Assembly: GCF_900637955.1 (NCBI RefSeq)
Contig: NZ_LR134476.1
Coordinates: 496,001 to 560,000, forward strand
From: Trueperella bialowiezensis
Lineage (GTDB): Bacteria > Actinomycetota > Actinomycetes > Actinomycetales > Actinomycetaceae
Length of the DNA stretch: 64,000 nt
Direction: 5' to 3'
The notes beneath the pieces were generated by a model, which was not told the origin of the DNA, made no database searches, and was given only the letters and a program-made list of their open reading frames with translations. Numbering within the stretch: position 1 is the first letter of the stretch; each line of letters starts with the position of its first letter. The position numbers and the translations under genes are program-made. This document shows, piece by piece, positions 17,906-23,962 of the stretch.

Positions 17906-19078
17906 GTGACAGTACTGGTTATTAATTCCGGATCGTCGTCGATCAAGTACCAGCTCGTGAACCCCGAGTCGGGCGAATCGATTGCTTCCGGCCTCGTGGA
18001 ACGCATTGGTGAAGAAACCAGCCACCTCGAGCACGACTACAACGGCGAGACCACCGAGCTGAACCAGCCGATCGCTGACCACGGCGAAGGCCTGCGCCTC
18101 GTCATCGACATGTTCAACGACGTCGGGCCCAAGCTCGCAGACGCGGGAGTGCAGGCTGTTGGCCACCGCGTCGTCCAGGGCGGTAATCATTTCAGCAAGG
18201 CCGCCATCATCGACGACGAGGTCCAGGCGCTCATCGAAGAACTCGCGCCGCTGGCACCGCTGCACAACCCGGCCAACCTCAAAGGTATTGAAGTTGCTCG
18301 CGAACTGTTCGACGTGCCGAACGTGGCCGTGTTTGACACCGCGTTCTTCCAGAGCCTGCCCAACGAGTCGGCCACCTATGCTCTGGATCGCGAGACGGCA
18401 GAGAAATACCAGATCCGCCGCTACGGCGCTCACGGCACCTCGCACATGTTCGTCTCGCAGAAGGTCTCGGACATTCTCGGCCGCGATGACCTCAAGCAGA
18501 TCGTGCTCCACCTCGGAAACGGCGCTTCGGTGTCTGCCGTCAAGAACGGCAAGGCTGTTGACACATCGATGGGCTTGACCCCTCTCGAAGGCCTGGTTAT
18601 GGGTACCCGTACCGGCGACATCGACCCGGCGGCCGTGTTCCACCTGGCCCGCGTGGGTGGCATGTCGATTGATGAGATCGACACGCTGTTCAACAAGAAG
18701 TCCGGCATGAAGGGCTTGGCTGGCGACAACGACATGCGCAACGTCAACGAACTTGCTGGCAAGGGCGATGAGAACGCCATTGAAGCACTCGAAGTGTACG
18801 TACATCGCCTACTGCACTACATCGGCGCCTACTCCGCGGTGATGGGCGGGCTGGATGTCATCACGTTCACCGCCGGCATTGGCGAGAACGACAACTCGAC
18901 CCGCGCCTCGGTGATCAAGCGCCTGGAGCCCTTCGGCATCAAGCTTGACGAGGAGAAGAACAACACGCGCTCGAAGGAGCCTCGCGTGATCTCGACCGAG
19001 GACTCGACCGTCAAGGTCATGGTTGTGCCGACCAACGAAGAGCTCTCCATTGCCCAGCAGGCGGTGGCCCTCCTCTAG
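17906..19078 (+). CDS. ackA: Acetate kinase
   Basis: 390 residues starting at GTG with AGGAGA upstream. Motifs run in order: VLVINSGSSSIKYQL (phosphate-1), AVGHRVVQGG, VFDTAFFQSLP (catalytic Asp), YGAHGTSHMFVS, VLHLGNGASVSAV (phosphate-2) and FTAGIGENDNS (adenosine). It transfers phosphate from acetyl phosphate to ADP. Same transcript as pta by spacing and direction, closed by a strong hairpin 55 bases after the stop. Confidence 0.97.
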   Translation: MTVLVINSGSSSIKYQLVNPESGESIASGLVERIGEETSHLEHDYNGETTELNQPIADHGEGLRLVIDMFNDVGPKLADAGVQAVGHRVVQGGNHFSKAAIIDDEVQALIEELAPLAPLHNPANLKGIEVARELFDVPNVAVFDTAFFQSLPNESATYALDRETAEKYQIRRYGAHGTSHMFVSQKVSDILGRDDLKQIVLHLGNGASVSAVKNGKAVDTSMGLTPLEGLVMGTRTGDIDPAAVFHLARVGGMSIDEIDTLFNKKSGMKGLAGDNDMRNVNELAGKGDENAIEALEVYVHRLLHYIGAYSAVMGGLDVITFTAGIGENDNSTRASVIKRLEPFGIKLDEEKNNTRSKEPRVISTEDSTVKVMVVPTNEELSIAQQAVALL

Positions 19079-19132
19079 GCTGCGGTATGCGCCGAATGCT
19101 GCTCTAGGCTGAGGTCTTAGCTGATTGCAAGC

Positions 19133-19167
19133 GGTGCCCGGCAGATCGAACCGATCTGCCGGGCACC
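19133..19167 (+). terminator. Terminator of pta-ackA
   Basis: A perfect 16-bp stem (ggtgcccggcagatcg / cgatctgccgggcacc) with a 3-base loop lies 54 bases after the ackA stop and is followed by CTTATGTTG. The T-run is weak but the stem is very stable. Confidence 0.75.
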
Positions 19168-19194
19168 CTTATGTTGAACTCGTGCTTTTCACAG

Positions 19195-19275
19195 TTCCCG
19201 GGGTACACGTTCACTTCCGGGGGTACCAAATCCGGCGATTTGTCTACCCCGCGAACGAAACAGATACCCCCGGAA
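19195..19275. repeat. Symmetric array of four 11-bp TTCCSGGGGTA sites
   Basis: Two direct copies, TTCCCGGGGTA (19195-19205) and TTCCGGGGGTA (19215-19225), face two inverted copies, TACCCCGCGAA (19245-19255) and TACCCCCGGAA (19265-19275). Copies on each side are exactly 20 bp apart and all pairs share one centre at 19235. The array lies between the convergent ends of ackA and the giant activase gene, just after the ackA terminator. It could be a multi-dimer protein-binding site or a folded RNA/DNA structure; no known element is recognised. Confidence 0.6.
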
Positions 19276-19292
19276 CGCAAAGCGTTACGTTC

Positions 19293-22200
19293 TTAGCGCG
19301 CATCCGACGGCGCGCCTACCCTAATTCGCGGCATGCCGAGCCCCACCTTGGTGGACTGGCCGGCACCCGCAGAACCGGCGCCCGCAGGAACACCTCCGCC
19401 TGCACACCCACAGCCACAACCGCCGCCGAGCATGCCGCCCTGCAGTTCTGAAGGGTCGTATTCGCTCGGATCGGTCAGATCCAGATCCACGTCCCCGGTG
19501 AGATCAAGCTTCTGCTCGCCTTCCTTATGGTTGATGAACGCGGTGGAGATCATGAGCTTGATCCGGTTGAGCTGGTTAACCTCGGAGGCACCCGGATCGT
19601 AGTCGATCGCGGTGATGTTGGCCTGCGGGTACTTCTGGCGCAGCGCACGGAACATGCCCTTACCCACCACGTGGTTGGGCAGGCAGGCGAACGGCTGAGC
19701 ACAAATAATATTGGGCGTCCCGTTTTCGATCATGTCCATCATGTCGGCAGTCAGATACCAGCCTTCACCGGCCTGGTTGCCAAGCTGGGCGATCTCCTGA
19801 ACCTTCTCAGCCAGCTCTTGGATGGTCGGCCCGGCCGTGAACCGCTCCGATTTTTCAAGCGCCCGGCGGTAGGGCTTCTCGTATTGCTGGAGCACCCACA
19901 GCGCAAGATTGTTGAGCTTGCGCTGCCTGTTCGTCAGCGATCCGAGCGTCTCATACTTCCAGTCGGCAGTCACCAGCGAGTTGTGGAAGAACTGCGCCAA
20001 GCTCGGCAGCTCAGCCTCACACCCTTCAGCTTCAATCACGCCAACCGCGTCGTTATTCGCATCCGGATGGTATTGCACAAGGATCTCGCCCACCATGCCC
20101 ACTCGTGGCTTGCGCGGAATATCCTGCAACGGAACCGTGTCGAACTCGCGGGTGATCTCTTTGATCAGCGCGTGGAACCCAATCTTGCGCCCGAGCGTGG
20201 GCGAATAGCCCTTGTATTCGAAGAACTCCCGGACAACGAGGTCCCACTTTTCGTAGAGCGCCACCACGTTGCCGTCGATCTGATAGGGGCGCGTGCGCAG
20301 CAGCACCTTCTGCAAAAGATCACCAAGCGTCACCGCCTGGATCGCACGGTGCAGCATCGGAATCGTGAACTCGAAGCCCGGATTGTCTTCCAACCCCTGC
20401 GCAGACACCGCGATCACTGGCACCTGGCTGTATCCGGCGTCGCGCAACCCCTTGCGCAAAAGCCCCGCATAGTTCGTGGCGCGACACATCCCACCGGTCT
20501 GCGTGATCGCAACTGCCGTGCGGTCTGGATCGGCGCGCCCAGCCACGAATTCGTCGATGAGCTGCCCGATCACCACGATGGCCGGATAACACGAATCGTT
20601 ATTGACGTACTTCAGCCCGGTCTCAATGTTTTCCTTCGTCGTCTTTTCCAGCAGCTTCACGTTATAGCCGCCACGGCGGAGCACCGGCATGAGCAACCGG
20701 AAGTGGATCGGCGCCATCTGCGGCACGAGGATCGTGTAGCCGTCCTCGCGCATCTGCTTGGTAAACGGCACGGGTTCGTAAATATGCCCGGCCTTCTTGT
20801 ATTCCACCATTCCGGCCTGCGACGGCGCGATCGCGTTGCGGCGCCTGCGCCCATCGCCGTCGGCCTGCGCATCCAACTGCGCCGGATAGGTGAGCACTTC
20901 TTCTGACTCGGGCGGGGTGTCCATACCCATCCGTTCCGCTCGTTCGTCAACGGCAGCAGCCAGCGACCGCAGCCGAATACGCGCCGCGCCCAAGTTGGAG
21001 ATTTCGTCGATCTTGAGCGAGGTGTAGACGTCTCCCCTGCCCTCCAAGATTTCCTGCACCTGATCGGCGGTAATTGCATCCAGACCACACCCGAACGACA
21101 CAAGTTGCACAAGCTGCAGGTCCGGATCATCACCGGCGGTGGCGGCCGCCTCGTAGAGTCGCGAATGGTACGACCACTGGTCGCGCACGCGCAACGGGCG
21201 TTCGAGTTTGTTTTCGACGACGGCGTCCTCCGTCAGTACCGCCGTTCCCAGCCCCACGATGAGCTCGGGGATACCGTGGTTGATCTCCGGATCAAGGTGG
21301 TAGGGCCGCCCGGCGAGCACCACGCCCTTGATGTTGTTCTCGCGAATGTAGTCGAGCGCCTCTTGCCCCTTGGCTTTGACTTCGGCGCGCACGGCCGCCA
21401 TTTCCTCCCAGCCGGCCTCACAGGCCTCCCGGGCTTCTTCTTCGGTCACGCCCCAATCCGCGAAGGTTTCGGCAATTCGCCTCGGCAAGATTTCACGGTT
21501 CGACAGCGAGAGGAACGGCGAAATGAACGTCGCCTTCTCCTCCGTCAGCCGTTCCATATTGTTGCGGATGACCTCGGGATAGGTGGCCACAATCGGGCAG
21601 TTAAAGTTGTTGTCTTGCCCGCTCGTCGTCTCTTCAGAGTAGGACACGCACGGGTAGAAGATCGTCTTGATCCCCTTGCTCAGCAGCGATTCAATGTGTC
21701 CGTGGGCGAGCTTGGCCGGATAGCACACGTTTTCAGACGGGATGGATTCCATGCCGTCCTCGAATAGGGCGTGGTTCGAGCGCCCCGAAATCATCACCCG
21801 GAACTTGAGCTTGGTCAGTACCGTGAACCAGAACGGATAGTCCTCGTACATGTTGAGCACGCGCGGGATGCCGATATCGCCGCGTTCGGCGTCGGCTTCA
21901 CGCAAGCGGCGGTAGCCGAAAATACGCTTGTACTTCCACTCGTACATGTTCGGGATCGGCGACTTCGCCGGCACGCGTTCCAGCGACGCCCCACGCTCAC
22001 ACCGGTTACCCGACACGTGCCGCTCACCGGTGGAAAACTTCGAGATCGTCATGTTGCAGTGGTTTTGGCACAGACGGCAGGTCTTCAGCTCGGTTTCCAC
22101 CGTCAGCCCATCAAGCTCTTCGACGGTGAGCAACGACGACGGACGGGCCTGATCCACTTCGTCCGGCTTGTAGTGCCGCTTGGCCGTGAGCGCCGCTCCG

Positions 22201-23894
22201 AAAGCGCCCATGAGTCCGGCAATGTTAGGCCGGACTACTTCCCGGCCGGTCAGCAGTTCGAAAGCCCGCAAAACGGCGTCGTTCAAGAACGTTCCGCCTT
22301 GGACGACGACGTGGTCGCCGAGCTCGTCCGCATCCTTGAGCTTGATGACCTTGTACAGCGCGTTGCGAACCACGGAGTAGGACAGGCCTGCGGAAATGTC
22401 GGCCACGCTCGCGCCTTCCTTCTGCGCCTGCTTGACCGAGGAGTTCATGAACACGGTGCAGCGGGTGCCGAGGTCCACCGGCGCAGTGGATTCGGTGGCG
22501 GCCTTCGCGAAGCTCTGCACGTCGGTATTCATGCCCGCGGCAAAGGTCTGCAGGAACGATCCACAGCCCGAGGAGCAAGCCTCGTTGACGGAGATCGAAT
22601 CGACCACGCCGTTCTTAATCCGCAGGTACTTCATGTCCTGGCCGCCAATATCAATGACGGACGTGACGCCCGGCTGCAAGTACTCGGCCGCGCGGAAGTG
22701 AGCCATCGTTTCGATCTCGCCCTCGTCCACACCAATCGCGGACTGCACAATACCTTCGCCGTAGCCGGTCGAGCACGAGCGCACGATTCGCGCCGTGTCA
22801 GGTAGCTCGTTTTGGATGCGCGTGACGATCTCCACCGCCGCGTTCACCGGATCGCCCTCATTCGAAGCGTAGTGCGTGAACACAATGCGGTCGTCTTCAT
22901 CAATGACGACGGCCTTGATCGTCGTCGACCCGGCATCAATACCGAGGAAGCAATCACCGCGAGCCTCCGACGTCGGCACGGACTCCACCCTCGCCTTGTC
23001 GTGGCGGGCGTAAAACTCGGCGCGTTCGGCGTCGTTTTCAAAAAGCGGACGAAGCCGGTTCGTCTCGATCCCGGCGTTGCCTGCCTCGCGCAGGGTGGTC
23101 GCCATCGTGTCGAGTTGTTTAACGTTGTTTTCGTCAGCGAGCATGGCAGCACCAATTGCAACGTAGAGCTGTGCGCGCTCGGGAGTAACGTAGGATTCGA
23201 CCTTGTCGAGAATGCGCTCGTAAGCTTTACGCAGTTCGGGCAGGAAGTGCAACGGACCGCCGAGGAACATAACATTGCCGCGGATCGGACGGCCGTTCGC
23301 AAGGCCAGCCACCGTCTGCGTTGCCACCGACTGGAAGATGGACGCTGCGAGGTCTTCGTGCGCCGCACCTTGATTGAGCAGCGGCTGGACGTCCGTCTTA
23401 GCAAACACTCCACAGCGGGAGGCGATCGGGTAAATCGTTTCGTAATTCTTGGCCAGTTCGTTCAGCCCGGCGGCGTCGGTGTTGAGCAGGGAGGCCATTT
23501 GGTCGATGAAGGCGCCCGTGCCTCCCGCACACGTACCATTCATGCGCTGTTCAGGGGTGGGCTTGAGGTAGGTGAGCTTGGCATCCTCGCCGCCGAGTTC
23601 GATGATGACGTCGGTGTCCGGGTAAGCGCGGCGGGTGGCCTCGGTTTCCGCGATGACCTCTTGCACGAACGGGATGTCGAGCACGTTGGCAACAGCCATA
23701 CCACCCGAGCCCGTCACCGCGGCACTCACATCAATACCGGGATGCTCGAACGCGATATCGGACAGCAGTTTGGCAAGCTCCGCACGCACGTCGGCATGGT
23801 GGCGCCGATAGTCTTCGAAAACGATGTCCTCGCCGTCGAGCAACACTGCCTTGACTGTCGTCGACCCGACGTCAATCCCTAATCGATACACCAT
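19293..23894 (-). CDS. 2-hydroxyacyl-CoA dehydratase activator/dehydratase-type fusion protein (BadF/BadG/HgdC + DUF2229)
   Basis: About 1533 residues from the ATG at 23892-23894 (GGGGG upstream; a TTG 21 bases earlier is possible). Two consecutive ASKHA ATPase modules: the first opens LGIDVGSTTVKAVLLD and has Cys122 (GTCAGGTGAF) and Cys161 (SRCGVFAKTD), matching the two Cys that bridge the [4Fe-4S] cluster in HgdC-type activases; the second opens FLGIDAGSTTIKAVVID (about residue 316) with Cys440/444 and Cys479. A long C-terminal part has the DUF2229/CoA-dehydratase-like segments (SENVCYPAKLAHGH, FYPCVSYSEE, VSFGCGLDAITADQ). The end is a Gly-Cys tail (GGGCGCGCAGGG). Family members use ATP to inject electrons into radical dehydratases in anaerobes; the substrate of this one is unknown. 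Divergent from tetR with two shared operators. Confidence 0.88.
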   Translation of the reverse strand: MVYRLGIDVGSTTVKAVLLDGEDIVFEDYRRHHADVRAELAKLLSDIAFEHPGIDVSAAVTGSGGMAVANVLDIPFVQEVIAETEATRRAYPDTDVIIELGGEDAKLTYLKPTPEQRMNGTCAGGTGAFIDQMASLLNTDAAGLNELAKNYETIYPIASRCGVFAKTDVQPLLNQGAAHEDLAASIFQSVATQTVAGLANGRPIRGNVMFLGGPLHFLPELRKAYERILDKVESYVTPERAQLYVAIGAAMLADENNVKQLDTMATTLREAGNAGIETNRLRPLFENDAERAEFYARHDKARVESVPTSEARGDCFLGIDAGSTTIKAVVIDEDDRIVFTHYASNEGDPVNAAVEIVTRIQNELPDTARIVRSCSTGYGEGIVQSAIGVDEGEIETMAHFRAAEYLQPGVTSVIDIGGQDMKYLRIKNGVVDSISVNEACSSGCGSFLQTFAAGMNTDVQSFAKAATESTAPVDLGTRCTVFMNSSVKQAQKEGASVADISAGLSYSVVRNALYKVIKLKDADELGDHVVVQGGTFLNDAVLRAFELLTGREVVRPNIAGLMGAFGAALTAKRHYKPDEVDQARPSSLLTVEELDGLTVETELKTCRLCQNHCNMTISKFSTGERHVSGNRCERGASLERVPAKSPIPNMYEWKYKRIFGYRRLREADAERGDIGIPRVLNMYEDYPFWFTVLTKLKFRVMISGRSNHALFEDGMESIPSENVCYPAKLAHGHIESLLSKGIKTIFYPCVSYSEETTSGQDNNFNCPIVATYPEVIRNNMERLTEEKATFISPFLSLSNREILPRRIAETFADWGVTEEEAREACEAGWEEMAAVRAEVKAKGQEALDYIRENNIKGVVLAGRPYHLDPEINHGIPELIVGLGTAVLTEDAVVENKLERPLRVRDQWSYHSRLYEAAATAGDDPDLQLVQLVSFGCGLDAITADQVQEILEGRGDVYTSLKIDEISNLGAARIRLRSLAAAVDERAERMGMDTPPESEEVLTYPAQLDAQADGDGRRRRNAIAPSQAGMVEYKKAGHIYEPVPFTKQMREDGYTILVPQMAPIHFRLLMPVLRRGGYNVKLLEKTTKENIETGLKYVNNDSCYPAIVVIGQLIDEFVAGRADPDRTAVAITQTGGMCRATNYAGLLRKGLRDAGYSQVPVIAVSAQGLEDNPGFEFTIPMLHRAIQAVTLGDLLQKVLLRTRPYQIDGNVVALYEKWDLVVREFFEYKGYSPTLGRKIGFHALIKEITREFDTVPLQDIPRKPRVGMVGEILVQYHPDANNDAVGVIEAEGCEAELPSLAQFFHNSLVTADWKYETLGSLTNRQRKLNNLALWVLQQYEKPYRRALEKSERFTAGPTIQELAEKVQEIAQLGNQAGEGWYLTADMMDMIENGTPNIICAQPFACLPNHVVGKGMFRALRQKYPQANITAIDYDPGASEVNQLNRIKLMISTAFINHKEGEQKLDLTGDVDLDLTDPSEYDPSELQGGMLGGGCGCGCAGGGVPAGAGSAGAGQSTKVGLGMPRIRVGAPSDAR

Positions 23895-23962
23895 CCGATA
23901 CCCCCACACTGCCAAAGAAGATGGTCGTGACCAATAGTTAGACCGTAACCAGTCAAGATATC

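Follow-up and report, generated by a model that had tools for sequence, protein, structure and literature searches.

The four-box array beside ackA of Trueperella bialowiezensis is one copy of an interspersed 81-bp palindromic repeat

Known palindromic repeats and the array of T. bialowiezensis

Palindromic repeats tagged with GTAG or CGTC are intergenic elements that lie mostly in convergent or tandem gaps, and some of them are species-specific (main text of PMC3733652). The same text places tagged REPs mostly in gamma- and alpha-Proteobacteria and describes the GTAG kind as thought to be moved by RAYTs; a word search of it for 'Actinobacteri' and 'Trueperella' gave no mention. The array described here was found in T. 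bialowiezensis, in a window of 64,000 nucleotides (contig NZ_LR134476.1). It resembles the REP, BIME and REPIN elements of that account in being a short intergenic palindrome with no coding capacity, with a bias to convergent and tandem gaps and with species specificity (PMC3733652). The architecture is different. REP, BIME and REPIN elements are described there as 20-40-bp units with GTAG/CGTC unpaired at one end (PMC3733652), whereas our element has 81 bp and four boxes on a 20-bp lattice. In 40/40 copies the central 6-bp hairpin has a GTAG next to it, internal to the 81-bp four-box element, and the counterpart in T. bonasi is GTAA. Unlike in the known systems, the arms are often non-complementary at fixed positions, and no RAYT-type transposase (Y1_Tnp, PF01797) was detected in nine genomes of the genus, its own included, while 5 of 14 control genomes were positive; this search for transposase types covered Y1_Tnp and serine recombinases. 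A RAYT origin is thus not supported. Because of the size, the four-box lattice and the missing RAYT, we regard the element as a variant of the REP-like kind outlined in PMC3733652 and not as a member of the GTAG family.

Three other systems were compared. Neisserial intergenic mosaics (dRS3/CGTC-1) are, like the surroundings of six copies of our element, mosaics of several repeat families (as described in PMC3733652). Their sequence and layout differ from those of the array, which has no link to Neisseria. The element is similar to MITEs in its 31-bp inverted terminal arms, its lack of coding capacity and its 40 copies, but it has no target-site duplication, and no parent with the same ends was found in its own genome. 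The attC sites of integrons vary between species, stand next to toxin-antitoxin genes and form imperfect hairpins in which two pairs of boxes occur with spacers that do not pair. The array shares these features; however, its conserved GTT/AAC are in the opposite order, and the arrays are dispersed rather than gathered in one cassette array. The integron integrase (TIGR02249) was found above cut-off in 0/9 genomes of the genus, so identity with attC is not supported; matches below the cut-off occurred in 9/9 of them and in 14/14 controls.

The array beside ackA and its copies in the genome

The first-pass annotation had described a perfectly symmetric array of four sites. Our analysis confirmed the positions: four 11-bp sites, two direct and two inverted, are placed 20/30/20 bp apart from centre to centre, and their starts and ends are equidistant from 19235 (Table 1). 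The consensus given with it, TTCCSGGGGTA, fits three of the sites, but the site at 19245 has one mismatch, so that TTCCS is not matched exactly.

Table 1. Parts of the array and its neighbours, in window coordinates
Feature	Position	Strand	Remark
Whole 81-bp element	19195..19275	-	Oriented so that the core reads GACAAATCGCCGGATTTGG; 1 of 40 aligned copies, sharp ends, mostly unrelated flanks
Outer site TTCCCGGGGTA	19195..19205	+	
9-bp spacer CACGTTCAC	19206..19214	+	Central GTT near-invariant, flanking triplets variable
Inner site TTCCGGGGGTA	19215..19225	+	
19-bp core GACAAATC-GCCG-GATTTGG	19226..19244	-	Both orientations relative to the arms among other copies
Inner site TTCGCGGGGTA	19245..19255	-	One mismatch
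9-bp spacer TCTGTTTCG (- strand reading)	19256..19264	-	Spacer type unlike that of 19206-19214
Outer site TTCCGGGGGTA	19265..19275	-	
Terminator-like hairpin after ackA	19133..19167	+	Separate from the element; identified by eye
ackA (acetate kinase), upstream neighbour	17906..19078	+	ORF; gene name from the first-pass annotation
Large activase-type ORF, convergent neighbour	19293..23915	-	ORF; name from the first-pass annotation

The array sits between the terminator-like hairpin of ackA and the end (19293) of the convergent activase ORF. The AckA protein is present in 9/9 genomes of the genus, its own included, and over 450 amino acids at its end the activase ORF has 85% identity in T. bonasi. 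Beyond the array the window shows no enrichment of the 11-mer (10 matches at up to two mismatches versus 24.3 expected), so that in it the four sites are on their own.

The whole genome gave another picture. At up to one mismatch the 11-mer produced 97 + 104 matches, versus 9 + 23 for the reversed control pattern, and a three-box composite pattern produced 40 + 41 (forward + reverse), versus 0 + 0. The 2.04-Mb genome holds 40 intact copies, which are all 81 bp long, share one internal spacing, occur in either orientation and mostly have unrelated flanks. BLAST with the consensus returned the same 40 places (40 of 44 first-look candidates scored). The script that read the copies demanded an exact inner GGGGTA-N19-TACCCC, and the 12 inner box positions are therefore invariant by construction; the outer GGGGTA boxes, which detection did not require, are intact on both sides in 40/40 copies. 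The array had first been taken for an isolated site of the ackA/activase locus. It is instead one copy of a dispersed repeat, and a one-off operator is not the favoured reading.

Uptake sequences occur singly in large numbers. An uptake sequence with a species dialect would be, as here, a species-specific short intergenic motif with inverted pairs. Outside the arrays, however, the 11-mer shows no clear excess (44 matches versus 32 for the reversed control at up to one mismatch); these counts do not support such a sequence, and we find this reading hardly credible.

Three decayed or half copies were found. The decayed copy at 292758-292839 and the half copy at 1337524-1337554 came from pattern searches at up to three mismatches, and the half copy at about 888358-888412 came from a flank search. 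Half arms matched at 83 places (up to three mismatches): 80 in the 40 arrays, two in the decayed 292758 copy and one in the 1337524 half copy. This search revealed no longer parent in the own genome with the same arms further apart, and a joined-flank search gave half copies only and no clean empty site. That intact copies far outnumber decayed ones suggests selection in place rather than a drifting repeat, and it counts against a mobile-repeat reading. The palindrome does not extend measurably into the flanks: of the 12 flank positions tested for complementarity, position 7 reached p=0.041 and the others (1-6 and 8-12) showed no excess. The array pattern was found in no viral contig and in no named genome contig, a set from which the own genome may be excluded; plasmids gave one 28-bp chance match.

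Gene contexts were assigned with a crude codon-based caller, by which 0/40 copies overlap a called gene; 19 lie in convergent, 17 in tandem and two in divergent gaps, with two undetermined. Convergent gaps exceed divergent ones significantly (19 vs 2, p=0.0002). Since the caller missed genes (for example an AbiEi-like ORF between the 637558/638919 pair), single context assignments may be wrong. The copy of the window probably serves as a neutral filler of the space that separates the ackA terminator from the end of the activase gene. Copies at 738459, 831095, 936571, 1667960, 1941624 and 1946970 are embedded in larger mosaic intergenic repeats with several further palindromic modules, which by eye are often near tRNA genes.

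Arms, core and transcripts

The TTC..GGGGTA boxes and the spacer GTT are nearly invariant across the copies. Variation is found mainly at positions 5, 13, 14, 18-20, 24, 25 and 48 and at the mirrors of the arm positions. A cooperative protein-binding geometry had been proposed for a lone site; the geometry is real, and near-invariant boxes beside freely varying spacers suit DNA recognition by a protein, but the lone site did not stand.

The inverted arms have 31 bp, and 22-28 of these are identical within a copy. The two arms of one array differ at positions 5, 13, 14 and 20 in 33, 35, 33 and 33 of the 40 copies, where free assortment predicts 20-22 (p<=7.2e-5 each, values that overstate the evidence because copies related by ancestry make the column statistics non-independent). 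The effect is weak at position 19 (32 vs 23.5 expected), and no difference beyond expectation was observed at positions 18, 24 and 25. Relatedness alone leaves unexplained that both arm arrangements are common (at position 5, 17 vs 15). Among informative copies, marker 13 goes together with marker 14 in 25/25 and with marker 20 in 23/24, while position 5 is independent of all three. This places the switches in the boxes: some lie between positions 5 and 13, the others between position 20 and the core.

In some copies the core has the reverse orientation with respect to the arms. Between the copies at 1941624 and 1946970, the left flank is alike at 52/60 positions, the left arm at 28/31, the right arm at 31/31 and, to a lesser extent, the right flank (38/60 in an ungapped comparison, with 18 matches by eye among its first 20 positions). 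The 19-bp core matches at 8/19 positions as it is and at 19/19 as the reverse complement; in this pair the inverted stretch reaches exactly from one inner box to the other. Spacers can be inverted by template switching at short inverted repeats, but the process also makes the repeat arms alike, according to the account in PMC8604942. The T. bialowiezensis arrays show the opposite, with arms that usually differ. From the sequences, a site-specific enzyme is conceivable as the cause of the core inversion.

It was also considered whether the element acts in RNA, as a 3' hairpin that would end or protect the transcripts of the adjoining genes. A strong hairpin is predicted for the activase strand, with -53.6 kcal/mol and z -3.7 (other strand -43.8, z -3.3), and many copies lie in convergent gaps. 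However, 84.5% of the cells across the arms pair, versus 87.7% in shuffles, and double changes occur in 10 cells versus 32.6; 500/500 shuffles were at least as high as the observed values on pairing and on double changes. A conserved RNA helix is not supported, because this arm-to-arm covariation is negative. Rfam gave no family at gathering score for the window stretch (18900-19600 had miRNA-, snoRNA- and glmS-like matches only, far below the gathering scores, which supports no identity), and five loci gave tRNAs only. Separate terminator-like hairpins were seen by eye near several copies. A role of the element in RNA is thus very improbable, and the structured 3' RNA of the activase transcript that had been offered as an option is disfavoured by the negative covariation and by the separate terminator-like hairpin after ackA (by eye).

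Relatives, gene modules and candidate mechanisms

The check proposed in the first-pass annotation, for further occurrences and for conservation in close relatives, gave a split outcome: there are many other occurrences in the own genome, but no conservation was seen in the relatives searched. At up to three mismatches the array pattern was found in the own genome only among 59 genomes, with 0/58 relatives positive, eight of them congeners, and BLAST with the consensus gave nothing at E<0.5 in the eight congeners. Trueperella bonasi DSM 17163 (genome G003; T. bialowiezensis is G000) carries a family of its own, with the same plan, another sequence, a 19-bp lattice, another site and a variable number of outer sites. 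Its sites, approximately GGRGRYCSRTA, stand around a hairpin core TAAGCC-N21-GGCTTA. Self-similarity was 0.505 at 19 bp and 0.24-0.32 at 15-18 and 20-25 bp. Among the 17 distinct arrays examined, the S of the inner site differs between the arms in 12 (p about 0.07, one-sided, calculated by hand for equal frequencies).

Gene order was compared with T. bonasi by tblastn over a 200-kb block. Two array loci, 1126900/1127665 and 1175490, are without an array in T. bonasi, where the genes that flank them stand side by side. Conversely, the T. bonasi array at 1037289 has no counterpart after the matching gene in the own genome. At the ackA-activase locus both species carry arrays, each of its own family, and near 1056806/1057163 a T. 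bonasi array is a single gene away. The position of arrays is therefore sometimes shared or near, which argues against full turnover.

Several further features were observed in other genomes. In G003, two 12-mers TCTCGCGGGAAG stand exactly 20 bp apart at 972496-972527, in a region matching the own YefM/YoeB locus; they are possibly a relic, or chance. A pair of arrays at 959431-960877 of the same genome adjoins a gene-order break relative to G000 at about 1139300. At about 1095008-1095217 and 1096887-1097075, G003 has a variant of its lattice with another core, adjoining a separate long hairpin family GCACCAAACG...CGTTTGGTGC, and another hairpin repeat family (GGCCATTTGTTGTGAGAAAA or similar) occurs near 1066185, 1070422 and 1103902. 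G007 has long intergenic-looking palindromes with TTAAGCTGATTCGCGCTGTATTAAC, AGCTTAATACGG or CGCGCTGTAGTAA near 996720, 1082961 and 1094626. After ackA, where the window has the array, G002 has a 21-bp direct repeat GGGCATTTCCTTATCTTGCGC in two full copies and a third partial one; no other copy of it was found in G002. In G007 and in G008 a single block of 200 kb was examined for repeats, and neither block showed a family of the same plan.

Neighbouring arrays of T. bialowiezensis are unusually similar. The nine adjacent pairs within 6 kb are alike at 74.9/81 positions on average, versus 71.0 for random pairs (permutation p=0.0002), and 7/9 are in direct orientation, versus 25/39 of all adjacent pairs. 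The four pairs within 2 kb are all direct and 78-80/81 identical, and each encloses one small gene module: an AbiEi-like protein (weakly matched in PADLOC, E 3e-6, and without a family in Pfam or NCBIfam), a DUF4143/AAA_14 protein (PDC-S01 in PADLOC), an ORF of 60 aa that matched no family, and a Phd/YefM-YoeB pair. Three of these four modules are toxin-antitoxin or defence-like. The link between array pairs and small gene modules is suggestive only.

These pairs bear on the possibility that the array is a recombination (attachment) site between whose copies small toxin-antitoxin or defence-like modules are inserted or exchanged, the boxes being the crossovers that also flip the core. The direct, near-identical pairs around single modules and the core inversion agree with it. 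So does T. bonasi, where three direct arrays lie between ackA and the activase gene (447485-449914) with an AbiEi-like gene between the second and the third, while the own genome has one array and no gene there. But the own genome offers four cases only, and each of the five pairs 3-6 kb apart holds several genes, some of which look by eye like transport and metabolic genes, with 2/5 inverted. Furthermore, no integron integrase lies above the cut-off (0/9), the two serine recombinases of the own genome are at 1.697-1.699 Mb, where no array was found, and homologous recombination between repeats or local duplication would yield the same picture. We consider an attachment site quite unlikely.

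The best explanation, to which we give a probability of about 0.6, is that the array is a copy of a species-specific, non-coding, interspersed 81-bp palindromic repeat of REP/BIME/REPIN-like kind, probably mobile, with the boxes as putative recognition sites of an enzyme. The element would have spread by copying, through transposition or recombination, by means of such a putative enzyme. On the DNA it would recognize the four 11-bp boxes, of which each arm has two, set about two helical turns apart, and exchange between opposite boxes may flip the core. Target-site duplications were not in significant excess at k=1-10 in the 40 copies; one 5-bp match had p=0.075.

The near-invariant boxes beside variable spacers, the fixed 20/30/20 spacing and the few decayed copies would also fit an array for a nucleoid-associated or chromosome-organising protein, bound cooperatively to four boxes on one helix face at sites scattered over the chromosome, with protein and motif diverging between species. 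A stretch of 281 kb spanning record position 0 has no copy, which would fit too; however, this gap is not significant (p=0.078 for 29 clusters). Moreover, no copy was found in congeners, the array is absent at two matching T. bonasi loci, and the T. bonasi architecture differs in its 19-bp lattice and variable number of sites. We hold a nucleoid-protein array to be unlikely; a partitioning role, which the first-pass annotation had listed as well, is conceivable.

A bolder combination is improbable in our judgement: the arrays could be active site-specific recombination sites of a Trueperella system not yet described, with an enzyme that acts on the 11-bp boxes and keeps inverting the core together with the inner arms, with array pairs through which small toxin-antitoxin or defence modules are gained, lost or exchanged, and with a fresh divergence of boxes, lattice and enzyme in every species. 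If true, several isomers of each array would exist in one culture. The kept difference between the arms and the exact inversion of the core make a read-level search for isomers a cheap test.

A literature search for REPIN, RAYT and Actinobacteria together gave no match, which is no proof of absence from print. Among the matches listed, no paper dealt with repeats in Trueperella; one of them is on Actinomycetaceae and, going by its abstract, on T. pyogenes (PMC4224338). What is new here is an unusually regular variant of the intergenic palindromic repeats already known in other bacteria. A four-box family in an actinobacterial genus without a detected RAYT, with a differently built counterpart in T. 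bonasi, raises the question of what spreads such repeats, and its tie to small toxin-antitoxin and defence modules could reveal a route of gene exchange.
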